Shown here one piece after another: positions 28,264-41,162 of a DNA stretch of 43,616 nucleotides. The translations under genes were made by a program, and so were the position numbers. The stretch comes from Calditrichia bacterium (lineage in GTDB: Bacteria > Calditrichota > Calditrichia > RBG-13-44-9 > J075): positions 1-43,616 of the forward strand of contig JANQQU010000006.1 in NCBI GenBank assembly GCA_028284905.1, given 5' to 3'. Each line of letters begins with the position of its first letter. The first letter of the stretch is position 1. The notes under the pieces were generated by a model. The model was not told the DNA's origin, did no database searches, and saw nothing but the letters and a program-made list of their open reading frames with translations.

Positions 28264-28494
28264 ACCAATATCTTCGTTAGTTATTCATCCTAAGCATAAA
28301 TTTACGATGAACTTACCCGAAAAACATTTTCAAGCAGGCAGCGGTTGGCGCTTGCGACAGTTATAACTATTTGAAGGTTTCTAACTACCGCTTCTGCCGC
28401 CGGAATGATCGATTTTTTCGCAAGTGCGACAGACGCATGATGAATGCCCGTTTTCAGCAAAGTAGCACCGAGAAGAATATTGGATGGAGAGAAA

Positions 28495-29703
28495 ATGGAC
28501 CAGCAGAATCTGAGAGGCGAATGGGGAAAGGCAATTACGATTGGTGGCCGGGAAGAACAACAGGATAGTGTAGAAATACTCTCTTCGAATCAATCCACCC
28601 TGCTAATTGTTGCAGATGGTATGGGCGGTCACCAGGGTGGCAGAAAAGCGTCTTCCCTGCTAACCGAAACCGCTGCGGAGATTTTCCGCAACACCGCTCG
28701 TATCGATGATAGCGAACATTTTTTTAATGCCATTATTCAAACAGCTTACCAGCGCATTCGGGAATATGCCAGTCAAACCGGCAGCAATCCTCACGCGACC
28801 GTCGTTATGCTTCTGCTGCAAAACCAGCAGGCATTTTGGGCACATATAGGGGATAGCCGCCTGATTCGTTTTAAACGCGGTCAATTTCATGAACGTACCC
28901 GCGATCATTCGGTGGTCGAGCTGCTGGTGCATGACGGAGAAATTGACGAATCGGAAATGGCTGATCATCCGGACCAAAATAAACTACTGCGTAGTATCGG
29001 GGGCGAAGCCACTCCGAAAGCATCATTCGGCAAAGCAGCGCTGGAAGCCGGTGATGCCTTTTTACTTTGCTCTGATGGGCTTTGGGAAACTGTCAATAAT
29101 CAGGAAATGGCCCGGCATATTTACAACAAATCCCCCCAGGAGGCAGCCGATTTTCTCGTCGGTACTGCCCAGGATCGCGGTGGAAAAACCGGCGATAATG
29201 TATCTTGTGCGCTTTGGAAAAGCAGCGCGGCGTATCAAGCAGCTGCAGTGGCGCCGGCCGAAAACACCAATCAGCGTACACCAACCGGCGAACGCCGGGA
29301 ACAATTGGATGTCGATCGTTACGAGAAATCTCCCGGTAACCCCTGGAAACCAATAGCACTCTTACTTTTTGGGATTATTATTGGCTTTATCATTGTCTAC
29401 TACGGGTCAAATATAAAACAGACGTTCAATAGCATTTTTGCCCCGGCACCAACAGATTCCAGCGTTGTTGTTAGCGATAGCAGTCAGCAGTCAAACCCGG
29501 CCAGCCCGGCTCTCGGCGATAGCACTTCCCGGGACAGTACATTACAGCAGCCCGGTGCGCCCATGGATAGCAGTCTTCAACAGGAGAACAGTCAGCCGGA
29601 CGTTCAATCGCCGGGAACTGCCCCGTCGCAGCCGAAGAAAATCCCCGGTGGCGATCCCGGACCAACCGGAAACGACATTGAAAGAAAAGGGAACGAAGAG
29701 TAA
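28495..29703 (+). CDS. PP2C-type Ser/Thr phosphatase with membrane anchor (first of two)
   Basis: This 402-residue protein has a cytoplasmic PP2C (PPM) domain at about 10-245. Its metal-binding motifs are intact: EEQQDSV, VADGMGGHQGG, HIGDSRL, LLCSDGLWE and GDNVSCALW. A linker leads to one membrane helix (about 285-302, IALLLFGIIIGFIIVYY), then a periplasmic tail rich in Asp, Ser, Gln and Pro (DSSQQS, DSTSRDST, DSSLQQ). It should remove phosphate from targets of the two kinases encoded downstream. The frame opens at 28444, but the ATG at 28495 has GGAGA at the right distance and starts just before the domain. It is the first gene of an 11-gene co-directional cluster; a second anchored PP2C with a similar tail closes it. 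Confidence 0.93.
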   Translation: MDQQNLRGEWGKAITIGGREEQQDSVEILSSNQSTLLIVADGMGGHQGGRKASSLLTETAAEIFRNTARIDDSEHFFNAIIQTAYQRIREYASQTGSNPHATVVMLLLQNQQAFWAHIGDSRLIRFKRGQFHERTRDHSVVELLVHDGEIDESEMADHPDQNKLLRSIGGEATPKASFGKAALEAGDAFLLCSDGLWETVNNQEMARHIYNKSPQEAADFLVGTAQDRGGKTGDNVSCALWKSSAAYQAAAVAPAENTNQRTPTGERREQLDVDRYEKSPGNPWKPIALLLFGIIIGFIIVYYGSNIKQTFNSIFAPAPTDSSVVVSDSSQQSNPASPALGDSTSRDSTLQQPGAPMDSSLQQENSQPDVQSPGTAPSQPKKIPGGDPGPTGNDIERKGNEE

Positions 29704-29819
29704 ATTTTATTTATAAGCTGTGAATTTTAGAGGTAGTTGCGGAGGGGGAAATCAATAAGACCAAATACGGTTTGAGCCGTTTGTATTCTTTTGGTTTTGT
29801 CACAATTTTGGAGCGAAAT

Positions 29820-31559
29820 ATGGTACAATCAAAACTGTCATCTTTTTCAGCAATTATTCTGCTACTGCTTTGCACTACGCTTTCCCCATTGTTCGGGATT
29901 GATTCCGAGACGCGCCAGCGGATGGAAAAAAGCACCGTTCGCATGGAAGCAAAAGTGCGTTTTACCGGGGATGTCGTCGTCGGGCAACAATTGCTACTGC
30001 CCCAACAGGCAACGCTGCAACTGCCCAACCCGCATGGTTCCGGATTTGTTATTTCCGAACGTCACGTGGTTACCAACAGCCATGTCGCTTTCGAAAAAGA
30101 ATTTTTCGCCCAGCAGCTCGCCAGGGAATTTGCCACGGCAGCCGGTGTAACGGAACAAAGCCAGTTCCAGCTTATCTACAATGCCTTTCTCAGTAAGATC
30201 GACAGCCGTATCGAATATTTTATCGTATTGGACTCCGATAGCAAGATCGCCGGGCAGGTCGTCTGGCGGAATCACCCCATGGACATTGCCATTGTCGAGG
30301 CCGCCGAGCCGCTGGGTCGTCCCATTGTCACTTTTGCCCCCTCCAATGTTGTCGAAGAGCTTCAGGACGTCTATGTGCTTGGTTTTCCCGGATCAGCGGA
30401 CTATGTCGGATCAACGGAAAGTCCTTACATCGTCAATCGCACCCGTGGTGTTTTAAGTAAACGCTTCCGGGACGATCAGAATCAGCGGGATTTGTATGCA
30501 ACCGATGCGGCAATTAACCCGGGCAACTCCGGTGGACCGCTCTTTACCGCCTGCGGCGAAGTAATGGGCGTAAACGTGGAGAAGGCCGCCGCTTTGGATG
30601 CGGAAGGTGCCGGATTCGCGATTCAGGTTGACAATATTTTCCCCGCGCTGGAAGAACTCGGCATCGATTATGGCACCTCATCCTTTCAATGCATCCCTGG
30701 GGATGCGACCGCTTCCATGCGAAACTGGCTGATTGGCGGTGGTTTGCTATTGACAGCATTTCTCGTCATCGGATTTCTCTGGTTGAAACGCTCCGGCGGT
30801 AATCGCATCAGCGAGCGGGATTTAAGCATGCTCATCAATCAAAAGCTGCAAAGCATTGGTGGCAAATCCCGTCGCCGGAAGTCCGCCCGGGTAGATGCCG
30901 AGGAAGTTGTCGGCAGCGGCACGCAGAACCTTGAAGCAGTGCTCTACTCTGAAAGTGGCAATGCACCACCGATTTACCTTACCGGAAATACCATCATTAA
31001 ACTGGGCGCCGGCGCCAGCTGTGATGTGGTCATCGATAACTCTTACATCTCCGGGGAGCATGCATCGCTGCAATCAGTCGGTGGTAAGGTGATTGTTACT
31101 GATCTGAACTCAACCAACGGCACATACATCAATGGCCGCAAGCTTACCGCCGGCAGTGCCACTGAATTACGCTCGAGTGAGCGCCTGATATTTGGCACGG
31201 AAAAAGTGGTTTATCGACTGGGCGATCCGAATACTTCCCCATCGGCTGCAGTTTCCGATCGTTTTATTACACTCGCTGCCAGAACCAATGGCATTCCTGA
31301 CATTAAAGTCGGTTCGCACCGGCTGGTGATCGGTCGCGAGGAAGGTCAGGTAATTATCGACAAGACTTATATCTCCGGGCGTCATGCCGCGGTATGGGTT
31401 GAAGGTGGTAAGCTGATGCTGCAGGATCTCAATTCCTATAACGGCACTTTTTTGAACAACAGCAATCATCAGTTGAAAGCGCATCAAACTGTTGCGGTGA
31501 AAAATGGCGACTGGATCATTCTCGGATCGAAAGACGTAGTTTATGAAGTTAAATATTAG
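29820..31559 (+). CDS. Periplasmic trypsin-like protease fused to two cytoplasmic FHA domains
   Basis: This is a 579-residue protein. After a signal peptide (about 1-24), a trypsin-like/HtrA-type protease domain spans about 30-285 with the full triad: His88 (VVTNSHVAF), Asp155 (MDIAIVE) and Ser237 (NPGNSGGPL). A membrane helix at about 303-322 (GGGLLLTAFLVIGFLWL) leads to a basic linker. Two FHA domains follow: about 385-450 (SYISGEHASL, DLNSTNGTYING) and about 495-560 (GREEGQVIIDKTYISGRHA, DLNSYNGTFLNN). FHA domains bind phosphothreonine, so the protease may be controlled across the membrane by the cluster's kinases. No PDZ domain is visible, unlike DegP. The ATG at 29820 follows GGAG; the in-frame TTG at 29772 is unlikely because it would spoil the signal peptide. 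Confidence 0.92.
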   Translation: MVQSKLSSFSAIILLLLCTTLSPLFGIDSETRQRMEKSTVRMEAKVRFTGDVVVGQQLLLPQQATLQLPNPHGSGFVISERHVVTNSHVAFEKEFFAQQLAREFATAAGVTEQSQFQLIYNAFLSKIDSRIEYFIVLDSDSKIAGQVVWRNHPMDIAIVEAAEPLGRPIVTFAPSNVVEELQDVYVLGFPGSADYVGSTESPYIVNRTRGVLSKRFRDDQNQRDLYATDAAINPGNSGGPLFTACGEVMGVNVEKAAALDAEGAGFAIQVDNIFPALEELGIDYGTSSFQCIPGDATASMRNWLIGGGLLLTAFLVIGFLWLKRSGGNRISERDLSMLINQKLQSIGGKSRRRKSARVDAEEVVGSGTQNLEAVLYSESGNAPPIYLTGNTIIKLGAGASCDVVIDNSYISGEHASLQSVGGKVIVTDLNSTNGTYINGRKLTAGSATELRSSERLIFGTEKVVYRLGDPNTSPSAAVSDRFITLAARTNGIPDIKVGSHRLVIGREEGQVIIDKTYISGRHAAVWVEGGKLMLQDLNSYNGTFLNNSNHQLKAHQTVAVKNGDWIILGSKDVVYEVKY

Positions 31560-31739
31560 GAGATAGGCGGTAGGCTATAGGCTGAAGGCCTAAGGTACTG
31601 ATTTTGAACAGCCTGATAGCCTATAGCCTTTTGTCTGAGCTATGAAGTTAAATATTAGGAGATAGGCGGTAGGCATTAGGCTGAAGGCCTAAGGTACTGA
31701 TTTTGAACAGCCTGATAGCCTATGGCCTTTTGTCTAAGC
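31542..31739. repeat. 2 x 99-bp tandem duplication including the end of the protease-FHA gene
   Basis: Unit 1 (31542-31640) and unit 2 (31641-31739) are nearly identical, differing at only a few bases. Each begins with the last codons and stop of the protease-FHA gene and continues with AGGCCTAAGG-type palindromic words related to the element at 8755-8793. The second unit thus carries a copy of the last few codons and stop without a gene. More words of the same family occur at about 31770-31840. Confidence 0.92.
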
Positions 31740-31848
31740 AATGTAGCACAATAAAAACAAGCAACAGGCTAACGGCCAGCGGCGACACGCTTTTTCTTTA
31801 ACCTAATAGTCCCGGGCCTAACGCCTTCAGCCGAACTAAGGATGCATC

Positions 31849-32625
31849 ATGAAACGCAAAAATCGCGAGATTAATATTTTCAGCATTTCCGCGCTGGATT
31901 TATTCGCTTCCGGGATGGGCGCCTTTGTCCTGATCGCGGTGATTGCCATGCCTTATTACCTGAAAACCGATCGCTCCATGGCAGCTGAGATTGCGGAATT
32001 GCGACAGCAGATCGAACAACTCAGCCAGCAGTTGCAGGCCAGCAACGACCGGGTAGCGCAGCTGGAACAGCAAAATCAGGATCTACAGGCAGAAAACCAG
32101 CAAATGCAGGCGGAAAATCAAAACCTGCAGGCAGAGAATCAACAACTACAAGCCCAGCTGGCGCAATCACAGGATCAAAGTCAGAGTGTCCAGGCAATGC
32201 AGGTACAAAATCAACAGTTGCAGGAACGCCTGAAAAGCTGCGAAGAGCAATTGGAAGTCACCTTCCTGGCCATCGTCATTAAATGGATAAAGGATGTCGA
32301 TGTGGACTTGCATGTTGTTGATCCCCGCGGCAACGAATTTTACTTTGAGAAGAAAACCCACACCGGCAGCGCGGCAATTCTTTCGATTGACGCCGTCAAA
32401 GGTCCGGGCATAGAAATCTGGGAATATTCCAATGCGATTCCGGGCGTTTACAAAGTGATGTATAATCTCTATAAAGGTGAAGTTGCTCCCACCGTAAAGG
32501 GCTCCTTATACTATCGCGGCGGCAGCAAACAATTTCCGGAGCATACATTACGCTACGTCGGACGCAAGGTGCAGGTCGCAACTATTCGCGTCACCGATGA
32601 CGGGCAAGTTAATATCAGTTTTTAA
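31849..32625 (+). CDS. Single-TM coiled-coil protein with Asp-bearing helix (motor-partner-like) and DUF2135-like domain
   Basis: This is a 258-residue protein. A short basic N-terminus is followed by one membrane helix (about 12-34, FSISALDLFASGMGAFVLIA) with Asp17 near its cytoplasmic start and Pro35 at its end. Residues about 45-136 form a Gln/Asn-rich coiled coil with the 7-residue repeat LQAENQQ. The C-terminal periplasmic domain (about 138-258) begins VIKWIKDVDVDLHVVDPRGNEFYF, which resembles the DUF2135 type of calcium-like acidic strand. An Asp in a lone N-terminal helix is the hallmark of ExbD, TolR, MotB and ZorB, partners of ExbB/MotA channels, and one such channel is encoded in this cluster at 38549-39313. 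The pairing is inference; sequence identity to ExbD is not evident. A start at 31849 is supported by AAGGA. Confidence 0.8.
   Translation: MKRKNREINIFSISALDLFASGMGAFVLIAVIAMPYYLKTDRSMAAEIAELRQQIEQLSQQLQASNDRVAQLEQQNQDLQAENQQMQAENQNLQAENQQLQAQLAQSQDQSQSVQAMQVQNQQLQERLKSCEEQLEVTFLAIVIKWIKDVDVDLHVVDPRGNEFYFEKKTHTGSAAILSIDAVKGPGIEIWEYSNAIPGVYKVMYNLYKGEVAPTVKGSLYYRGGSKQFPEHTLRYVGRKVQVATIRVTDDGQVNISF
32083..32157 (+). repeat. 21-bp in-gene repeat encoding LQAENQQ heptads
   Basis: About three and a half copies of a 21-base unit encode the coiled-coil heptad (L/M)QAENQ(Q/N). Unit number could vary by slippage and would change the coil length in steps of one heptad. Confidence 0.7.
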
Positions 32626-32677
32626 TGAATCATTTTCGCATTTAGCATAAGAGAAAACAAGGGCAGGGCAAATCACG

Positions 32678-34255
32678 ATGCAAAATGAAGCAAAACATTC
32701 CTTACCGGCGAATTCAATGCTGCGCGAGTTCCGGATTACCCGAGTGCTCGGCGCCGGCGGTTTTGGTATTACCTACCTGGCGGAAGACACTCACCTGAAG
32801 CGCAATGTCGCGATCAAGGAATACTTCCCTACTGAACTGGCCTGGCGGGAAGCCAGCACCAAGGTCGTTCCCCGCACTACACAAAACGAAGCGCCCTTTG
32901 TTAAAGGTGTGGAAAGCTTCATGAATGAAGCGCAGAAACTCGCCCGCTTCAAACATGCGAATATTGTGACGATCCATAACTTTTTTCCTGCCAATGGCAC
33001 CGCCTATTTTGTAATGCCCTATTACGAAGGAGAAAGCCTCGAGGAATATCTCCACCGGAAAAAGAAGCCCTTAAATGAAGCGGAAATTCTGAAGTTCGTC
33101 CGCCCAATCCTGAATGGCCTGGAAGCGGTTCATAAAGAGAAAATTCTTCATCGGGATATTACCCCGGGTAATATCTACCTGAGAAATTCCGGTGATCCGC
33201 TGTTAATAGACTTTGGCGCAGCACGGGTGGCGGTCGGTAAAGCCAGCCGTAGCCTGACGATGGTACTGACCCAGGGATATGCCCCTATGGAGCAGTACAA
33301 TGAGAAGGGAGAGCGGCAGGGGCCCTGGAGCGACCTTTACGCACTTGGGGCGGTTATGTATCACTGTATTTCCGGAAACCCGCCTCCACCGGCGCCGGAA
33401 CGTCTGGTGGAAATTTATGGCGAAAATGACCCTTATAAAAAAGCGATAGATATCGGCAAAGGGAAATATAGCGAGGATTTCCTCAATGCTATTGACCGTG
33501 CCCTGGAAGTAAAGACCGTTGCGCCCCGCCCACAGAATGTTGCGGAAATGCGTAAGCTCATCGGAAAAGAAAAAACCGCCGTTACACCTCCGGTCGCGCC
33601 TCCGCCCCCGGAGCCAGTGAAAGCCGCTGGCGGCAAAATCTGGAAGGTCGCAACTATCCTCTTTGCCATCATGGCAGCAATCCTTGGCGTTACGACCTAC
33701 GAAGGATATGATGAAGCAGAGCGCTGGGAAAGTAACTACTGGAGCGCTAATTACGAGAAGCGGGAGCTTACCAACAACGTCAGTTCGTTGAATGATGAGC
33801 TGGAGAAGATCAAGGAAGAGAATCAAAACTTACAGGGGCGGAAAATTTCCTATCCACGAATAACGACTTATCCGTTAACCCTGACCAAAATCGAATTTGC
33901 CAGCTGGGACGGCAACAATCTGGTCAATAGCTATGGGAATACGCTTTACTCTAATAATCTGAATTACATTTCACCAAGAATTCATTATTCGACCAATATT
34001 TTCTTTAGCGCCGGCAACAAGGATATCTATGTGAAACTTTATCTTCCCAACGGCACACTTTCTACCGGCAGTACCTCTCCAGCCGGATATAGCTACAAGT
34101 CGTCTTTATATATCGGCACTAACAGCACAAATAAAATGCTCGAATTAACCCGCTGGGGCACCGATAGCGGCGGCTATTTTGATCGTGGCTGGTATCGCTT
34201 TGAAGTATGGTATAACGGCGGTTGCATCGGCACCGCATCCTTTTTTGTCAATTAG
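32678..34255 (+). CDS. Membrane Ser/Thr protein kinase with periplasmic beta-rich domain (kinase 1)
   Basis: This is a 525-residue Hanks-type kinase. The kinase domain covers about 15-285: glycine loop GAGGFG (25-30), Lys47 in VAIKEYF, HRDITPGN (158-165), IDFGAAR (Asp178) and GYAPMEQY. Thr162 replaces the usual catalytic-loop Lys; HRDxS/T variants are known in active bacterial kinases, so I do not call it dead. A Pro-rich linker leads to a membrane helix (about 321-341), a short coiled coil (LNDELEKIKEENQNLQ) and a periplasmic beta-rich domain (about 390-525) of a type I do not recognise. This part could sense an envelope signal. It lies directly upstream of a second, related kinase. Confidence 0.93.
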   Translation: MQNEAKHSLPANSMLREFRITRVLGAGGFGITYLAEDTHLKRNVAIKEYFPTELAWREASTKVVPRTTQNEAPFVKGVESFMNEAQKLARFKHANIVTIHNFFPANGTAYFVMPYYEGESLEEYLHRKKKPLNEAEILKFVRPILNGLEAVHKEKILHRDITPGNIYLRNSGDPLLIDFGAARVAVGKASRSLTMVLTQGYAPMEQYNEKGERQGPWSDLYALGAVMYHCISGNPPPPAPERLVEIYGENDPYKKAIDIGKGKYSEDFLNAIDRALEVKTVAPRPQNVAEMRKLIGKEKTAVTPPVAPPPPEPVKAAGGKIWKVATILFAIMAAILGVTTYEGYDEAERWESNYWSANYEKRELTNNVSSLNDELEKIKEENQNLQGRKISYPRITTYPLTLTKIEFASWDGNNLVNSYGNTLYSNNLNYISPRIHYSTNIFFSAGNKDIYVKLYLPNGTLSTGSTSPAGYSYKSSLYIGTNSTNKMLELTRWGTDSGGYFDRGWYRFEVWYNGGCIGTASFFVN

Positions 34256-34308
34256 CAAGGTCCGGATCGGACAATATTTTATGTTCGCAAAAAGAACGAA
34301 CGATTTTT

Positions 34309-35967
34309 ATGCCAGATAATCATATACATGCACTCCCGGTCGGCAGTCGGCTGCGGGAGTATGAAATTCTTCGGGTGCTCGGCGTCGGTGGCTTTGGCAT
34401 CACTTACCAGGCCAGGGATACCAATCTGCAGCGCAACGTCGCCATCAAGGAATATTTCCCCAGTGAACTGGCCGGCAGAGATGGCGCCAGCAGTCGTATT
34501 GTTCCCCGCTCAGAAAAACAGGAATCGCTGTTCGTAGAAGGTGTGACCGGTTTTATCGAAGAAGCACGGGCCATTGCCCGCTTTAGCCACCCGAATATTG
34601 TGCGCGTGCTGAACTTTTTTTCGGCCAATGGCACCGCCTATTTTGTAATGGAGTTTATCGAAGGGGAAAGCCTGCAGCAGTTGATCAACTGTCAGGGCAC
34701 CCCAATGCCGGAAGCGCAGCTGGAAGAGATACTGCGCGCCGTGCTGGAAGGCCTGAAAGTTGTTCACGAACAAGGGATGCTTCATCGGGACATCAAGCCG
34801 GACAACATCTATTTACCAAAGCACGGACCGGCGATATTAATTGATTTTGGGGCAGCACGTTACGCTGTCGGAAAGGCAACCAAAAGTCTTTCTCTTGTTC
34901 TCACGGAAGGATATGCGCCTTATGAGCAGTATCAAAGCGATGGCCGCCGCCAAGGTCCCTGGACCGATCTCTACGCACTGGCCGGCACGCTTTACACTTG
35001 TATCACCGGGAAAGTGCCGCCGAAAGCACCGGACCGGGCAGGCTTCGATGATGCTCCCGATCCCTTCCAGCCAGTCAGTAAATTAGCAGCCGGGCAATAT
35101 AAAACCAGTCTGCTGGCAGCGATTGATGCAGCGATGACTTTTTCTTTCCGAAAGCGCCCGAAAACCATCGAAGCCTTTGAAACGCTGATTGAAAAAGTGC
35201 ACCAACCCTCTCCACCGCCAGCAACGCCACCGGCAGAAACAACTGCGACTGAGGAAAGTTATTACGAAGAAGCATTTAGCGCGGATGACTTTATCGAGTT
35301 TTCCGCACCTCCGGCGCCTCCGGAGTATATGCTTCAACAGGAAGAGAGTGTGCCGCCTCCCCCGCCAAAACCGAAAGAGAAGGCAATGCCGAAGCGGGTA
35401 AAGGAAAAAGTGGCGAAGCAAAAACCTCCTCTTTCAGCGCCGAATGCGCGCCTGAAAAATATTGCCATCGTTTTTGGTGCTATCATACTTATTGCGGCAA
35501 TTTGGAATATTTCCCGGCAACCGGCAACATCATCTGCGGGAAATGTAACTTCCCCACCGGCGGAAAATCGGGCGTCTTTATCCAATGCAGATGTGCGGGA
35601 TTTCGTGGAGCGATATGTTTCCGTCGCCAATGCCGGTAATATTTTCTTTATGCTGAATATGTATCATGATCGGGTGAAGTTCTATGACAAAGGATTTGTC
35701 AGTAAAACCTATATTGAGAAAGATAAACTGAATTATTACAAACGCTGGCCAATCGTCAACTATCGTTTGGATGGCGGCATAGATGTTCGTTCGGGTAGCT
35801 CTCAGGATAGCCGGCGGGCAGTTTTCAAAATTAATTTTTTAGTGCGCAATGACGCCGAGAACCGCCAGGTTCGCGGACAGGCGGAAAGTCAGCTGGAAGT
35901 TCGCCTGATTAATGGCGAGCTGAAAATTGTGGCAGAATCGCAAAAAGTACTGAAACGGGTTCAATAA
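34309..35967 (+). CDS. Membrane Ser/Thr protein kinase with periplasmic NTF2-like domain (kinase 2)
   Basis: This 552-residue Hanks-type kinase closely resembles kinase 1 in its N-terminal lobe (GFGITYQARD, VAIKEYFPSELAGR, FFSANGTAYFVM). Catalytic motifs are standard: GVGGFG, Lys47, HRDIKPDN (159-166), IDFGAAR and GYAPYEQY. A long Pro/Glu-rich and then basic linker (about 300-380) precedes one membrane helix (about 384-402). The periplasmic part (about 430-552, DVRDFVERYVSVANAGN, FYDKGFVSKTY) has the look of an NTF2/SnoaL-like alpha+beta barrel. The frame opens upstream at 34222, but the ATG at 34309 gives the same N-terminus as kinase 1. The ribosome binding site is weak. The two kinases probably arose by tandem duplication with new sensor domains. 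Confidence 0.93.
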   Translation: MPDNHIHALPVGSRLREYEILRVLGVGGFGITYQARDTNLQRNVAIKEYFPSELAGRDGASSRIVPRSEKQESLFVEGVTGFIEEARAIARFSHPNIVRVLNFFSANGTAYFVMEFIEGESLQQLINCQGTPMPEAQLEEILRAVLEGLKVVHEQGMLHRDIKPDNIYLPKHGPAILIDFGAARYAVGKATKSLSLVLTEGYAPYEQYQSDGRRQGPWTDLYALAGTLYTCITGKVPPKAPDRAGFDDAPDPFQPVSKLAAGQYKTSLLAAIDAAMTFSFRKRPKTIEAFETLIEKVHQPSPPPATPPAETTATEESYYEEAFSADDFIEFSAPPAPPEYMLQQEESVPPPPPKPKEKAMPKRVKEKVAKQKPPLSAPNARLKNIAIVFGAIILIAAIWNISRQPATSSAGNVTSPPAENRASLSNADVRDFVERYVSVANAGNIFFMLNMYHDRVKFYDKGFVSKTYIEKDKLNYYKRWPIVNYRLDGGIDVRSGSSQDSRRAVFKINFLVRNDAENRQVRGQAESQLEVRLINGELKIVAESQKVLKRVQ

Positions 35968-35969
35968 AC

Positions 35970-36704
35970 TTGCGCCGGATAATTGTATTAATCAGTTTTA
36001 TTTGTTTATTTTGGGTTGATATCTCCGGAGATGCGGCACTTCCGGAAAAGCCTTTTCTGATCGCGATCGACGTCGGTCATACCCAATCGAGTCGCGGCGC
36101 CATTAGCGCCAGAGGAAAGGGAGAATTTGATTTTAACCGGACGTTTGCCAGGGAGTTGCAAGCAGTATTGACGGACAGCGGTGGTATTGAGACTGTCCTC
36201 ATCAACGCAAACGGAAAAATTGGCAGCCTGCAGCAACGGACTGCCGATGCCGGGAAAGCCGGGGCGGATTTCTTTCTTTCCATCCACCATGATTCCGCCC
36301 AGCCGAAATATTTTTCCAGCTGGAAATATAACGGCAAACAACATCGCTATAGCGACAATTTTCAGGGCTATTCTATCTTTTATTCGGAAAAGAATATTGC
36401 CCCGCAAAAGAGTTTCAGATTTGGGCAGTTGCTGGGAGGCCATTTACAAGAGAACGGTTTTAGCTATACCGATCATCATGCGGAAGCCATTGCCGGAGAA
36501 AACCGGCCATTGGTAGATGCAGAAAAAGGCGTTTACCGCTTCGATGACCTGATTGTGCTGAAAACCGCGCAAACCCCTGCAATACTGCTGGAATGCGGGG
36601 TTATCGTTAACCGGGATGAGGAACTGCTTCTTTCCGACCCGGCGTATCGTCGAAAAATGCAGCTGGCTGTTCTCGCTGCTTTTCAGCAGTATTTAGAGAA
36701 ATAA
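35970..36704 (+). CDS. Secreted N-acetylmuramoyl-L-alanine amidase (Amidase_3)
   Basis: This 244-residue zinc amidase cuts the bond between MurNAc and the stem peptide of peptidoglycan. A short signal peptide (MRRIIVLISFICLFWVDISG) is followed directly by the catalytic domain. Zinc ligands are His37 (DVGHTQ), Glu52 (GKGEFDFN) and His106 (FLSIHHDS), and the catalytic Glu is Glu208 (LLECGVIVN). There is no AMIN or SPOR targeting domain and no visible autoinhibitory helix, so control must come from elsewhere. The start is TTG at 35970, 2 bases after the kinase 2 stop; no better start preserves the signal peptide. This tight coupling ties cell-wall hydrolysis to the kinase module. Confidence 0.92.
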   Translation: MRRIIVLISFICLFWVDISGDAALPEKPFLIAIDVGHTQSSRGAISARGKGEFDFNRTFARELQAVLTDSGGIETVLINANGKIGSLQQRTADAGKAGADFFLSIHHDSAQPKYFSSWKYNGKQHRYSDNFQGYSIFYSEKNIAPQKSFRFGQLLGGHLQENGFSYTDHHAEAIAGENRPLVDAEKGVYRFDDLIVLKTAQTPAILLECGVIVNRDEELLLSDPAYRRKMQLAVLAAFQQYLEK

Positions 36705-36719
36705 TCCGAGGAGTTTTTA

Positions 36720-38096
36720 ATGAGAAGTTATCTGCTGATTATAATCTTGTCTTTCTTACCTTTCTCCCTGTTGGCCCAGGAAGCTACCATAGAGATGCGC
36801 CTTAGCGATGCGGGTAATCTGGCGTTCACCTGGCAATCCAATGGCGCTGCACCGGACGCTGTAAAGATATCCGCGGGCAATACCGTATTATTCGAGGATT
36901 CCATCCATAATGCAACACAGCTGGAAAACTATATCCTCTTTCTGCTCGATACCAGCAATTCGATGAATCGGCCTTTCCGCCAGGGTATTAAAGCGTATCT
37001 CAAGAATACTTTGCAGCAATTACCGACCGGCTACCAGGTAGCGCTGGCTACTTTCGATGACAGTCTGCGGGTAATCAACAGTTTTACCGATAGCGACTCC
37101 CTGCTTTCGTCCCAGGTAGATGAGATCACCACCGGCAGGAAGCGCACCGAGCTTTTTGGCTGGCTGGTAAAAAGCATCGATCATTTTCCGGCGCGGACGG
37201 ATATCAATAAAATTGTCGTGGTATTTTCCGACGGCAAAACCACCGATATCGCCTACGACCATGCTGCTGTCGTGGCAAAGGCGAAAGCGGCTCAGGTCAG
37301 TATTTTTTCCGCAGCATATCTGAATCTGCCGGAAGACCAGTATCTCCGCCGCCTGTCCGATGATACCGGCGGCTATTTTGAGCGGGCGAGCAGCAGCCAC
37401 GCGCTGGCAGATCGTTTTAATGAACAGTTATTTGCCTCCGCGCGATACCAGGGCAGCAGCTCCGTCGATCTCACCAAAACAGATGGCAGTCTGGACGGCG
37501 AGCAAACCATCACCTATGCGCTGACTTTCCCGGATGGCAGCGTTCAAAGCGAAAATTTCACCCATACTTTTGAGGCTGCACAACCACCGGCCTGGCTGGG
37601 AATCGGTGGCGGCGCACTTTTACTGGCGCTACTGCTGCTTTTCTGGTTTATGCGTAAACGCAAACAAACAGAAGCCCCGGCAAGTGATGGCGAAGAAGCG
37701 CCGGCAGTCGATTTTTCCTGCCCGGCCTGTGATGCGACACTGCCGCCGAATGCCACTCAATGCCCGAAATGCGGTAGTCCTATCGATGCAGACTTATCCG
37801 CCCTCGCCTGGCTGGAAGAAGCGAAGGGAAACACCCATCCGATCAAAACAACTTCCTGCAAAATTGGCGCTTTGGGAAACAACGAAATTGTTTTAAATTA
37901 TGAGAAAATCAGCCGTAATCATGCGATTATCGATTTCAAGGACGGCCGCTTTATTTTAACCGACCGTAACTCTGCGAATGGCACTTTTGTGAATGATAAA
38001 CGGGTAAACAGCACAGAGTTGAATCATGAAGATATCGTTCGATTCGCCAATCTTCATTTTCAATTTCTGATTAATCCGTTGATAAAACGCTCCTGA
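36720..38096 (+). CDS. Periplasmic vWA protein with membrane helix, zinc ribbon and FHA domain
   Basis: This is a 458-residue protein. A signal peptide (about 1-19) is followed by a vWA domain (about 70-250) with an intact metal-ion-dependent adhesion site: Asp77-Thr-Ser79-Asn-Ser81 (DTSNS), and a later VVVFSDGKTTD motif. One membrane helix (about 292-312, WLGIGGGALLLALLLLFWFM) leads to the cytoplasm. A zinc ribbon (Cys334, Cys337, Cys348, Cys351) and an FHA domain (about 380-445, EKISRNHAII, DRNSANGTFVND) follow. It could couple a periplasmic protein ligand to a phosphothreonine partner inside the cell. A GAGGAG site precedes the ATG, 15 bases after the amidase stop. Confidence 0.92.
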   Translation: MRSYLLIIILSFLPFSLLAQEATIEMRLSDAGNLAFTWQSNGAAPDAVKISAGNTVLFEDSIHNATQLENYILFLLDTSNSMNRPFRQGIKAYLKNTLQQLPTGYQVALATFDDSLRVINSFTDSDSLLSSQVDEITTGRKRTELFGWLVKSIDHFPARTDINKIVVVFSDGKTTDIAYDHAAVVAKAKAAQVSIFSAAYLNLPEDQYLRRLSDDTGGYFERASSSHALADRFNEQLFASARYQGSSSVDLTKTDGSLDGEQTITYALTFPDGSVQSENFTHTFEAAQPPAWLGIGGGALLLALLLLFWFMRKRKQTEAPASDGEEAPAVDFSCPACDATLPPNATQCPKCGSPIDADLSALAWLEEAKGNTHPIKTTSCKIGALGNNEIVLNYEKISRNHAIIDFKDGRFILTDRNSANGTFVNDKRVNSTELNHEDIVRFANLHFQFLINPLIKRS

Positions 38097-38125
38097 TAAA
38101 CAGGACGATAGCAAAGGAGGGCATC

Positions 38126-38536
38126 ATGAGTTATTGTACTATCGGCCGCCGGGATGTCGGCACTGCAGCAATATTGATAGACGACAGTACCGTCTCTTCC
38201 CGCCATGCGGTGATCTACCGAAATGCGAATGGGAATGCCTGCATCCGCGACGAAGGCAGCCGGAACGGCACGCTGATCCGCCGCGGACAACAATATCTGC
38301 CGGTGAAGAGCGAAGAAGAAATTTTTCCCGGAGACCAGGTTTATTTTGGCAAAGCAATGCTCAGCTATGATTATCTGGTAAATGGATTAAAAGAGTGGCA
38401 AAGCGGCCGAAAAGTGGCGCCGTATGAGCCTCAGACGCCGGAAGAAAAGAACATGATCCGCTGTTTTAATTGTGCGAAACCGGTTTCAAACATGCAGAAA
38501 CGCTGCCCCCATTGTGGCGAAGATTTGACACTTTAA
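38126..38536 (+). CDS. Small FHA-zinc ribbon protein
   Basis: This 136-residue soluble protein has an FHA domain filling residues 1-90 (CTIGRRDVG, TVSSRHAVIY, DEGSRNGTLI) and a C-terminal zinc ribbon (CFNCAKPVSNMQKRCPHCGEDL). It has the same two modules as the cytoplasmic end of the vWA protein, in reverse order. It is probably a phosphothreonine-reading adaptor. A strong AAAGGAGGG site supports the start, and the stop is 12 bases from the start of the channel gene. Confidence 0.92.
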   Translation: MSYCTIGRRDVGTAAILIDDSTVSSRHAVIYRNANGNACIRDEGSRNGTLIRRGQQYLPVKSEEEIFPGDQVYFGKAMLSYDYLVNGLKEWQSGRKVAPYEPQTPEEKNMIRCFNCAKPVSNMQKRCPHCGEDLTL

Positions 38537-38548
38537 GAGGAAATGAAA

Positions 38549-39313
38549 ATGAAGAACAAACAATTGAGCCGCGGCATGATTGCCTGGATCATGATCGGTG
38601 TGGCAATTGCCTTTCTGGTTGTCTCCCACTTTCTCCCTTTAGGCGATAATCTGAAAATGATTATCTTCGATTATGGCGGTGATACTTATCCCTTTTCGAT
38701 TCAGAACATTATGTGGGTCGTCTTTTTTATCGGATTTGGCGAATTGTGGTATCGGGTGCAGTTGACCAACGCCCTCGGTGATGAGCTCAGCAACAAGCTG
38801 CTGCCGGAAGATGACCATGCCGTACTGACCCCGAAAGACCTGGGAGAATACTTCCGGAAGGTGAAGGACAAAGACGATAGCGGCCTGGCCGGCTTGATTA
38901 AAAGTTTGATTATGCAATTCCAGACATCTCACTCTATCGAGCAGACGCATTCCATGCTCAATTCTCAAATTGAACTGAAGAACTCCCTGATGGATGTTCG
39001 CTACAGCTTCATCCGTTACATCGTCTGGCTGATTCCCACCCTTGGTTTTATCGGTACGGTGATTGGTATTGCCCTGGCGCTTGCTTATGCCGGTGATCCA
39101 TCCACCGACCCCAGTGCGCCGGAATTCCTCGGGGTATTGACCCAAAAACTTGGTGTCGCCTTCTACACCACCCTGGTCGCCCTGGTGATGAGCGGTATTC
39201 TGGTATTTGTAATGCACATTGTGCAGGCAAAGGAAGAAGAGCAGATTTTAAAAGAAGGGAAATATTGCCTGGATAATTTTATTAATCGTTTATATGTAGA
39301 TCGTAGCAAGTAA
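38549..39313 (+). CDS. MotA/TolQ/ExbB-family ion channel protein
   Basis: This 254-residue membrane protein has four helices: about 10-28, 46-64, 149-173 and 196-222. The last two hold the family core: the signature IPTLGFIGTVIGIALALAYA followed by TQKLGVAFYTTLVALVMSGIL, and then a cytoplasmic amphipathic tail. In ExbB, TolQ, MotA and ZorA these helices line the proton or sodium pathway of a pentamer around a dimer of a single-helix partner. The large loop between helices 2 and 3 (about 85 residues) is cytoplasmic. I chose the ATG at 38549 because GAGG lies 8 bases before it; the ATG at 38543 is too close. The likely partner is encoded at 31849-32625 in the same cluster. Confidence 0.9.
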   Translation: MKNKQLSRGMIAWIMIGVAIAFLVVSHFLPLGDNLKMIIFDYGGDTYPFSIQNIMWVVFFIGFGELWYRVQLTNALGDELSNKLLPEDDHAVLTPKDLGEYFRKVKDKDDSGLAGLIKSLIMQFQTSHSIEQTHSMLNSQIELKNSLMDVRYSFIRYIVWLIPTLGFIGTVIGIALALAYAGDPSTDPSAPEFLGVLTQKLGVAFYTTLVALVMSGILVFVMHIVQAKEEEQILKEGKYCLDNFINRLYVDRSK

Positions 39314-39382
39314 GCGATGGCCAATTGGTTATATCTTGCCTCGAATACTAAAACATTTTACGCTTCCCAGGTTTAATGGAAC

Positions 39383-39443
39383 CGTTGTTCGTTGTCCGTT
39401 CTTCGAATTTCGAACAACGAGCAACGATCAACGATCAACGATC
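39383..39443. repeat. CAACGAT/CGTTGTTCG short-word inverted repeat
   Basis: CGTTGTTCG words (39383-39407) are followed by inverted CGAACAACG and three direct copies of CAACGAT. It lies in the 201-base gap between the channel gene and the next FHA gene and can fold into a hairpin. The word differs from all other repeats in the window. Confidence 0.75.
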
Positions 39444-39514
39444 AGAAATGATAATTTTCCGATATTGAATCAACGAATTACAAGTTTATTAATGTTTTCA
39501 GAAAGGAGTTTCTC

Positions 39515-40174
39515 ATGCCGATGGTACGATGCCCAGCCGGTGAACATTTTTATGATAACGAGCTTCACAAGGAATGCCCATATTGCCTGGATGAGAATTA
39601 TGTGCCGTCTCAATCCGGCGGTGGCGGTGGCCGCAAAACCGAGTTAAATCCCGGCATGGGCGAAAGCACTCCCCAGGGCGCGCAGCCAGGGAGAAAAACA
39701 GAGATTATTCCCGGTGGCAGTAGCGCCGGTAGCAGCGCCGCAGGCAAACCTTCCGGCGCGAAAACAGTGATGATTTCTCCCTCTTCCGGTAAATCCGATG
39801 AAGGCAGTGCGCCTGCTGATAGCGGCGGCCAGGAATTTAATCCGATGGTCGGTTGGCTGGTGATCGTCGAAGGTCCCGGTACAGGCAACGATCTGAAGAT
39901 CTACAATGGCTTCAATACGATTGGCCGTGGCAGCGGTAATCGCATCGTTCTCAACTTCGGTGATATGACTGTTACCGAAAATAAACATGCCAGCTTGTTA
40001 TACGATCATGAAGAGAACAAATTCTTCGTTGCCCATAACGAAGGAAAAGCGCTGACCAAGGTAAATGGCAAGCTCGTTGCCGGATTAACTGAATTAGCGG
40101 CATACGACAGAATCAAAATTGGTGAGACGATTGCAATGTTCGTCCCGCTTTGTGGCGATAACTTTACCTGGTAA
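39515..40174 (+). CDS. Cys-motif protein with repeated KTE sites and divergent FHA domain
   Basis: This is a 219-residue soluble protein. The N-terminus has a half zinc-ribbon-like motif (Cys6, Cys21, Cys24). A Gly/Ser-rich linker contains three evenly spaced threonine sites: GRKTEL (Thr42), GRKTEI (Thr62) and GAKTVM (Thr84). The C-terminal domain (about 108-215) has FHA texture (NTIGRGSGNRIVL, TVTENKHASLL, VNGKLVAG), but the usual SRxH and NGT are altered to TENKH and TKVNGK, so ligand binding may differ. The threonine sites are plausible kinase targets and FHA ligands, making it a switch protein; this is inference. A GAAAGGAG ribosome binding site supports the start. Confidence 0.82.
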   Translation: MPMVRCPAGEHFYDNELHKECPYCLDENYVPSQSGGGGGRKTELNPGMGESTPQGAQPGRKTEIIPGGSSAGSSAAGKPSGAKTVMISPSSGKSDEGSAPADSGGQEFNPMVGWLVIVEGPGTGNDLKIYNGFNTIGRGSGNRIVLNFGDMTVTENKHASLLYDHEENKFFVAHNEGKALTKVNGKLVAGLTELAAYDRIKIGETIAMFVPLCGDNFTW

Positions 40175-40178
40175 AAAC

Positions 40179-41162
40179 ATGATGCGCATCGGAAACGAAC
40201 AAAGTAAAGGCGCCCGGGAATTGCAGGAAGATTATTTTGCAATTCCCGAAGTTCCCGGCGGCACGCTGGTTGTCGTCGCGGACGGGATGGGCGGATATGC
40301 TGGCGGTAATATCGCCAGCTCATCGGCGGTGAAAACGTTTACCCGGGTCTTTAAGGAGCAGTTTAACCCGGAGAATATTCCCGCCTGCCTGGAGAATGCC
40401 CTTTACAAAGCAAACAATCAAATTCGGCAACTCAAGGCTGAGAAGAGTGAATTGCAGCAAATGGGCACCACCATCGTCGCCGCTTTTTTCAATGAAGAAC
40501 AAGTGTTCTGGATTAGCGCCGGCGATAGCCCCTTTTACCGTTGGCGAAATGGAAAGCTGGCCCGCCTGAATGCCAATCACTCTTTCGCGGCAGAGGTAGA
40601 CCGCAATGCTGCTATGGGATTGATCAGTGAAAACGAAGCGCGGAATCATCCGCAGCGCCATGTCGTCACCAGTGGCCTCGCCGGGGAAGAAATTCATTTG
40701 GTCGATAAAAGCACAGTGGGCCTAGAAGTACGCAGCGGCGACCGTTTTATCCTTGCCTCCGATGGTATTCACACCTTACCAGATATGGAAATCCGCGATG
40801 TCATCGCCGCCAGCGATGATCCGCAAAGCGTTGCCCGGGAGCTGCTGCAAAAAGTTAGCGCTGCAAACCTGCCCGATCAGGACAATTGTACAATTGTCGC
40901 TATAAATCCACCGGAAGCTGCACCACGTAATAAGCTGGCAATTGCCGGTGTATTGCTGTTTGTGATTGTAACTATTCTCGGGTATTATATCATTTCCGGA
41001 CCGGGCACTACAACGACCAACAATAATCAGCAGTCGCTACCAGCGGTAGTTGCGGACAGCACTGATTCCCTGCAGCAAATCTCCGACAGCCTGGTTACAG
41101 ATAGCCTGCAAACCGACAGTCTTGCCACAGACAGCAGCGCCAGCGACACCACCCGCCCATAA
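40179..41162 (+). CDS. PP2C-type Ser/Thr phosphatase with membrane anchor (second)
   Basis: This 327-residue protein has a PP2C domain at about 1-240 with motifs ELQEDYF, VADGMGGYAGG, SAGDSPF, LASDGIHT and DQDNCTIV. The metal-binding aspartates are present. One membrane helix (about 251-271, LAIAGVLLFVIVTILGYYI) is followed by an acidic periplasmic tail built from DSL/TDS repeats. The same plan is seen in the phosphatase that opens the cluster. ATGs lie at 40179 and 40182; the ribosome binding site is weak, and the gene begins 4 bases after the preceding stop, so translation may be coupled. It is the last gene of the cluster and converges on the GH57 gene. Confidence 0.92.
   Translation: MMRIGNEQSKGARELQEDYFAIPEVPGGTLVVVADGMGGYAGGNIASSSAVKTFTRVFKEQFNPENIPACLENALYKANNQIRQLKAEKSELQQMGTTIVAAFFNEEQVFWISAGDSPFYRWRNGKLARLNANHSFAAEVDRNAAMGLISENEARNHPQRHVVTSGLAGEEIHLVDKSTVGLEVRSGDRFILASDGIHTLPDMEIRDVIAASDDPQSVARELLQKVSAANLPDQDNCTIVAINPPEAAPRNKLAIAGVLLFVIVTILGYYIISGPGTTTTNNNQQSLPAVVADSTDSLQQISDSLVTDSLQTDSLATDSSASDTTRP

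Follow-up and report, generated by a model that had tools for sequence, protein, structure and literature searches.

What partners a MotA/TolQ/ExbB-type channel protein that is encoded among protein kinases rather than beside an ExbD gene, and what might the two proteins do together? The question is raised by a stretch of 43,616 nucleotides from a Calditrichia bacterium (contig JANQQU010000006.1, positions 1 to 43,616; hereafter the window), whose 8.55 Mb genome holds four MotA_ExbB genes: three have an ExbD gene immediately beside them, and the one in the window has none. With a probability that we put at roughly 0.78, the product of that gene (38549-39313, the ring protein) and a protein with a lone N-terminal helix (31849-32625, the shaft protein) form an ion-driven motor of the MotA/TolQ/ExbB kind in the inner membrane, switched by surrounding kinases, PP2C phosphatases and FHA proteins. 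An earlier note, made from the sequence of the window, had proposed such a pair as a motor.

The ring protein and the shaft protein

The features of the pair, all on the forward strand, are as follows.

31849..32625, + strand: shaft (B-type) subunit, 258 residues; intact open reading frame (ORF); D17 and G24 each in 41/41; adjoins the channel gene in L011, L017, L048, L049, L061 and L062
31849..31965, + strand: motor signature, residues 1-39 (MKRKNREINIFSISALDLFASGMGAFVLIAVIAMPYYLK), with the Asp17 codon at 31897-31899; the family's best-conserved part, retained when the C-terminal domain is swapped
31972..32250, + strand: coiled coil, about residues 42-134, with Leu at d and an Asn run at a (dimer-type), from the heptad count
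32260..32622, + strand: predicted periplasmic output domain, a DUF2135-like beta-sandwich, from tblastn, Pfam on aligned members and predicted structure
38549..39313 (ORF also open from 38543), + strand: channel ring (A-type) subunit, MotA/TolQ/ExbB family; Pfam MotA_ExbB 1e-12; T172 and T210 in 28/28; fold of a relative

Residues 121-235 of the ring protein match Pfam MotA_ExbB (PF01618) at an E-value of 1e-12, above the curated cut-off, which bears out the ExbB/MotA assignment of the earlier note. Its start at 38549 likewise stands, being preferred over the 38543 of the automatic ORF because it is better spaced from a GAGGAA at 38536. Across an alignment of 28 ring proteins, R158, W162, P165, the GFIGTVxGI helix, T172 (39056-39058) and T210 (39170-39172) are invariant, the two threonines (counted from the 38543 start) representing conserved Thr/Ser positions on both pore-lining helices. 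The best sequence match in the PDB has an E-value of 0.22. A fold search was made with a model of a relative, the L017 ring, which had been read through one stop codon (an artificial linker) into the first 90 shaft residues and of which the ring part alone was used (mean predicted local distance difference test, pLDDT, 82); its top PDB matches are ExbB, TolQ, MotA, ZorA and PomA chains, with a best template modelling score (TM-score) of 0.66 (TolQ 8vlw), weak E-values of 0.01-0.2 and a probability near 1 for most. The C-terminal cytoplasmic tail of the ring is also conserved (YCLDNLINRLY, residues 239-252 of the 38543-39313 protein), with Tyr241 and Arg249 invariant in 28/28; we know of no such tail in ExbB, and it may be a docking site.

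The sole strongly hydrophobic stretch of the shaft protein comprises residues 16-34, where Asp17 is encoded by GAT, and the positively charged N-terminus, MKRKNRE, indicates an N-in orientation by the positive-inside rule. Residues 42-134 constitute a coiled coil, of strongly differing length between relatives, in which most d positions are Leu or Met and four Asn follow one another at a; as Asn at a and Leu at d go with parallel dimers, the pattern suggests that the shaft is a parallel coiled-coil dimer. Residues 138-258 make up the DUF2135-like domain. The PF09906 (DUF2135) profile matches 3 of 8 aligned members (best E 0.0022, under the curated cut-off), the window copy itself having no Pfam family above noise; tblastn with the shaft recovers YfaP/DUF2135 proteins from E. 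coli, with about 37% across 70 residues (E 0.02). The AlphaFold model of the domain is a beta-sandwich with a pLDDT of 95, to which a fold search finds immunoglobulin, MmpS and collagen-binding domains, all only distantly alike. Thus, the lone helix with Asp17, the coiled coil and the DUF2135-like domain previously read from this gene are all recovered in an intact ORF. As to the aspartate, it and Gly24 are the only invariant positions across 41 aligned shaft N-termini (41/41 each). The choice of shaft sequences by an Asp-containing profile biases this count somewhat; a pattern scan that also admitted E or N in place of the Asp returned D in 42/42. This is the only protein of the cluster with a single N-terminal helix that is acidic close to the cytoplasmic side, and no other membrane helix in the cluster has an acidic residue at this position.

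In the known family a pentameric ring surrounds a shaft dimer, ions pass via an Asp of the shaft and the shaft moves (PMC9389320). By analogy, the ring would be a pentamer of the 38549-39313 protein and the shaft a dimer of the 31849-32625 protein, whose Asp17 would carry the ions and face the ring helices lined with threonine (T172, T210). Ion flow would turn or otherwise move the shaft, the parallel coiled coil would transmit this movement into the periplasm, and the beta-sandwich would touch the wall, the envelope or a protein target. The surrounding kinases, phosphatases and FHA proteins would most likely turn the motor on or off via phosphorylation of Thr residues on the cytoplasmic side. 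The 5:2 assembly, the ion flow, the movement, the regulation and the target are all drawn from this analogy and from gene context; for the target, the neighbourhood points to the envelope, and the presence of an amidase gene in it gives a hint of the cell wall, although no match to the amidase was seen in the relatives compared.

Co-occurrence of the two genes and variety of shafts

A single-sequence search of genome contigs with the coiled-coil protein found nothing, and the first relatives came from tblastn against plasmids. On a Rhizobium leguminosarum plasmid both proteins are encoded by neighbouring genes (47% and 38% identity), with PP2C, FHA and kinase genes around them. A two-sequence ring profile led to eight more loci in Alphaproteobacteria, Binatota, Desulfococcaceae and Bradymonadales; seven of these genomes have the shaft gene, six of them at most 10 kb from the ring gene and one (G042) on another contig, and in the sole shaft-less genome the ring gene is truncated (L021). 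Class-wide searches added some two dozen further loci. Among 385 alphaproteobacterial genomes, the shaft helix profile matches 17 and the ring profile 17, with 16 in common (hypergeometric P about 4e-26). In the ring-only genome, G626, two weaker shaft genes follow the ring gene directly, so that no alphaproteobacterial ring gene found stays without a shaft. In a second phylum (277 genomes) seven have the shaft and eight the ring, all seven shaft genomes carrying the ring; the expectation that the coiled-coil family accompanies an ExbB/MotA-type gene is thus borne out in 16 of 17 alphaproteobacterial shaft genomes and in 7/7 here. The extra ring genome of that phylum, G195, has a 494-residue ring variant and, after it, a small membrane protein that is similar in pattern but has no Asp. 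In the window's own phylum, shaft and ring were found only in this genome, save for weak ring matches in two others.

The two genes are adjacent in the six loci named in the list above and usually lie within a few kb of each other elsewhere, so that the spacing of about 6 kb described by the earlier note holds in the window and not in many relatives. In unrelated phyla, too, the pair is repeatedly found among FHA, PP2C and kinase genes. Also in favour of the pair, the distance matrices of ring and shaft correlate in a mirror-tree comparison (r=0.89 across 25 pairs, and 0.71 when confined to the kinase-linked class).

While the first 39 or so residues of the shaft are kept, the remainder of the protein changes: by sequence clustering, 11 copies have DUF2135-like heads and 24 VWA-type heads, with small groups of other heads making up the rest. 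Moreover, two tandem shaft paralogues occur at many loci, namely L014, L015, L056, L058, L059, L061 and the majority of those in a second class (class B, below), which suggests heterodimeric shafts; in one such pair (L014:18674-20580), both VWA-headed, one paralogue retains the DxSxS metal site (DLSGS) and its neighbour is without it. A heterodimer is likewise an open question for AglQ/AglS (PMC9389320). The previously proposed output of coiled coil plus DUF2135-like domain fits the window protein but is too narrow as a fixed output for the family, whose heads can be swapped and whose shaft frequently consists of two distinct paralogues.

Two classes can be told apart. Class A, to which the window belongs, has the signature S-A-L-D-L-F-A-S and, in most loci, FHA, PP2C and kinase neighbours; its gene order of short FHA, ring, FHA and PP2C recurs in unrelated phyla and matches 38126-41162 of the window. 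Class B has the signature S-F-L-D-V-I-S-C-G-F-G and a more distant ring, and its loci (L050, L051, L063, L065, L066, L070, L071, L076) consist of a ring gene and usually two tandem VWA-type shaft genes; PEGA/FGE-sulfatase and TPR proteins stand beside the motor genes instead of kinases (checked in L052, L063, L065). Apart from these, two cyanobacterial plasmids (L012:9551-12130, L013:7551-10151) encode a roughly 470-residue MotA-like protein and then two small helix proteins, the first without an Asp (ELFPFLSVLACTIG) and the second with one (SFLDILTNTVG), in regions that also hold CRISPR Cmr, viperin or methylase/helicase genes. They may form a third class, linked to defence, in which each pair of shafts has one Asp. 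At L102:2866-5056 a 494-residue MotA-like protein precedes a small helix protein that lacks the Asp (PMFQFLSVLVCLIG), an arrangement similar to these plasmid pairs.

The gene cluster and competing explanations

In the window the pair is part of a same-strand gene run (28444-41162) with two PP2C phosphatases, two Ser/Thr kinases, several FHA proteins, a VWA-FHA membrane protein, an amidase and a trypsin-FHA protein.

28444..29703, + strand: PP2C phosphatase with membrane helix; Pfam PP2C, DGMGG motif intact
29772..31559, + strand: trypsin-like protease with membrane helix and two FHA domains; Pfam
32678..34255, + strand: Ser/Thr protein kinase with membrane helix; Pfam Pkinase 3e-35, HRD and DFG intact
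34309..35967 (ORF open from TTG 34222), + strand: Ser/Thr protein kinase with membrane helix; Pfam Pkinase 3e-35, HRD and DFG intact
35970..36704, + strand: N-acetylmuramoyl-L-alanine amidase, signal-type N-terminus; Pfam Amidase_3 2e-29
36720..38096, + strand: VWA domain, membrane helix, zinc ribbon and FHA domain; Pfam
38126..38536, + strand: short FHA and zinc-ribbon protein, directly upstream of the channel gene; Pfam FHA 3e-13
39515..40174, + strand: FHA protein with cysteine-rich N-terminus, directly downstream of the channel gene; Pfam
40179..41162 (ORF listed from TTG 40119), + strand: PP2C phosphatase with C-terminal membrane helix; motif DGMGG, blastp matches in relatives

An FHA gene occupies the matching upstream position in L011, L014, L015, L016, L018, L048 and L064, and the matching downstream position in L014, L015, L016, L018, L020, L058, L059 and L064. 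The domains of the trypsin/FHA protein match proteins near motor genes in L057, L059, L064 and L048. Upstream of the shaft gene, at 31560-31740, lies a near-identical duplicated intergenic stretch of about 80 bases whose end is a GCCTATAGCCTTTTGTCT-like sequence.

With signalling genes (FHA, PP2C, kinases) as the recurrent neighbours, the pair might be an ion-gated signalling device that produces no force, in which the DUF2135 or VWA head senses the state of the envelope, the shaft shifts and the ring signals inwards to the kinases via FHA proteins. The heads are indeed of ligand-binding types and vary between relatives as sensors do, and no cargo-transport or motility gene is constant near the pair; however, the invariance of the Asp and Thr residues implies that ions are conducted, and known relatives use ion conduction for mechanical work (PMC9389320), and we regard this explanation as unlikely, if the most serious of the alternatives. 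It is far less probable that the ring pairs with an ExbD from elsewhere in the genome and that the coiled-coil protein is a separate periplasmic scaffold. Six ExbD genes are available and the ring and coiled-coil genes are separated in the window, but all six adjoin the three other ExbB-type genes, the ring and coiled-coil families co-occur tightly, their genes are adjacent in relatives and Asp17 is invariant. Marginally less probable still is a Zorya-type anti-phage system of ZorAB plus effectors: in PADLOC the ring weakly matches ZorA2 (2e-8) and the kinases weakly match defence kinases, the latter matches being generic to the kinase fold, and there is no match to ZorC, ZorD or ZorE; no nuclease or helicase is found among the cluster proteins scanned, nor an OmpA/peptidoglycan domain in the shaft. 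With a weak ZorA match and no effectors, Zorya membership was rejected.

Several observations weigh against the motor with its kinase switch. The helix of the shaft is without detectable profile homology to ExbD helices (score 10.3 against a shuffled mean of 10.8 and maximum of 20.4). The place of Asp17 inside the ring would follow from family membership, and the control by kinases is suggested by gene neighbourhood, its one basis. Genome G435 has a shaft gene, yet only an ordinary MotA-type channel gene, perhaps owing to an incomplete assembly, and in the stretches read a few relatives (L017, L062) have neither a kinase nor a phosphatase match. Finally, the mirror-tree correlation partly reflects the shared descent of the organisms.

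Since there is no profile signal to ExbD, common descent with it is not claimed, and the role given to the shaft follows from its position and its pattern of residues. A Pfam scan gave no ExbD domain (PF02472) match in the shaft, and scans of the whole protein and of its C-terminal domain gave no OmpA-type peptidoglycan-binding domain; membership of ExbD/TolR was thus rejected by the former together with a helix comparison no better than shuffled controls, and that of MotB/ZorB by the latter. The shaft is therefore not a demonstrated relative of ExbD, TolR, MotB or ZorB, and most likely works like them. In the window's own phylum, ExbD-type proteins with the N-terminus FSFSSLTDIVLLLLIFFLL (L092, L094, L096) bear a surface likeness to the shaft motif FSxSxLD that is too little to show homology.

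Known systems and the place of the pair among them

The proposed motor finds partial parallels in several known systems. With ExbB-ExbD and TolQ-TolR it shares the Pfam family and fold of the ring protein, as well as a shaft with a short N-in single helix, an Asp near its cytoplasmic end and a periplasmic domain. In contrast to these, the present shaft has no ExbD/TolR domain, carrying a long coiled coil and a DUF2135-like or VWA head instead, no TonB/TolA-like third subunit is seen here, and FHA, PP2C and kinase genes lie around. MotA-MotB and PomA-PomB have a like GFIGTVxGI ring motif with the channel Thr and a like four-helix-type ring, in which a cytoplasmic segment separates helices 2 and 3; by contrast, the present shaft has no OmpA-type peptidoglycan domain, the cluster has no flagellar genes, and the ring is divergent. 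ZorA-ZorB likewise has a MotA-family ring and a shaft of its own and belongs to neither flagella nor uptake systems, but ZorB carries an OmpA-type domain, and the cluster has no Zorya effector genes. The gliding motor of Myxococcus, AglR-AglQ-AglS with GltG, likewise joins a single ring protein to two distinct shaft paralogues and has a membrane partner with an FHA domain, whereas AglQ and AglS are of the ExbD/TolR family with no DUF2135 or VWA head, and PP2C/kinase genes lie outside that module (PMC3169522).

A further parallel might be struck on the regulatory side. In type VI secretion, a Ser/Thr kinase, a PP2C phosphatase and an FHA protein (PpkA-PppA-Fha) switch an envelope machine; the present cluster has the same kinase, PP2C and FHA set but no type VI secretion genes seen, and the switched machine would here be an ion motor. 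Our search of the literature, confined to open-licence articles, so that absence is no proof, found no published description of this ring-shaft pair. The ring and shaft genes very probably encode the channel ring and drive shaft of a proton-powered motor in the membrane, with a shaft from a family for which no description was found, and they suggest that bacteria use kinases, phosphatases and phosphopeptide readers to control such a motor. More tentatively, and at somewhat under even odds, the loci might represent a widespread undescribed superfamily of ion motors with a modular Asp-helix/coiled-coil shaft, exchangeable heads, often a 5:1:1 heterodimeric composition and a dedicated kinase/PP2C/FHA circuit of Thr phosphorylation.

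The 5:2 motors known so far drive flagella, gliding and uptake, maintain outer-membrane stability and serve in phage defence. If the reading of the pair as a motor is true, the same engine would also have been coupled to phosphorylation signalling, with a shaft type of its own, exchangeable heads and a built-in kinase/phosphatase/FHA circuit. It would give a role to DUF2135-like proteins, on which we found no article in the open-licence literature, and would offer a system in which motor regulation and heterodimeric shafts could be tested directly.

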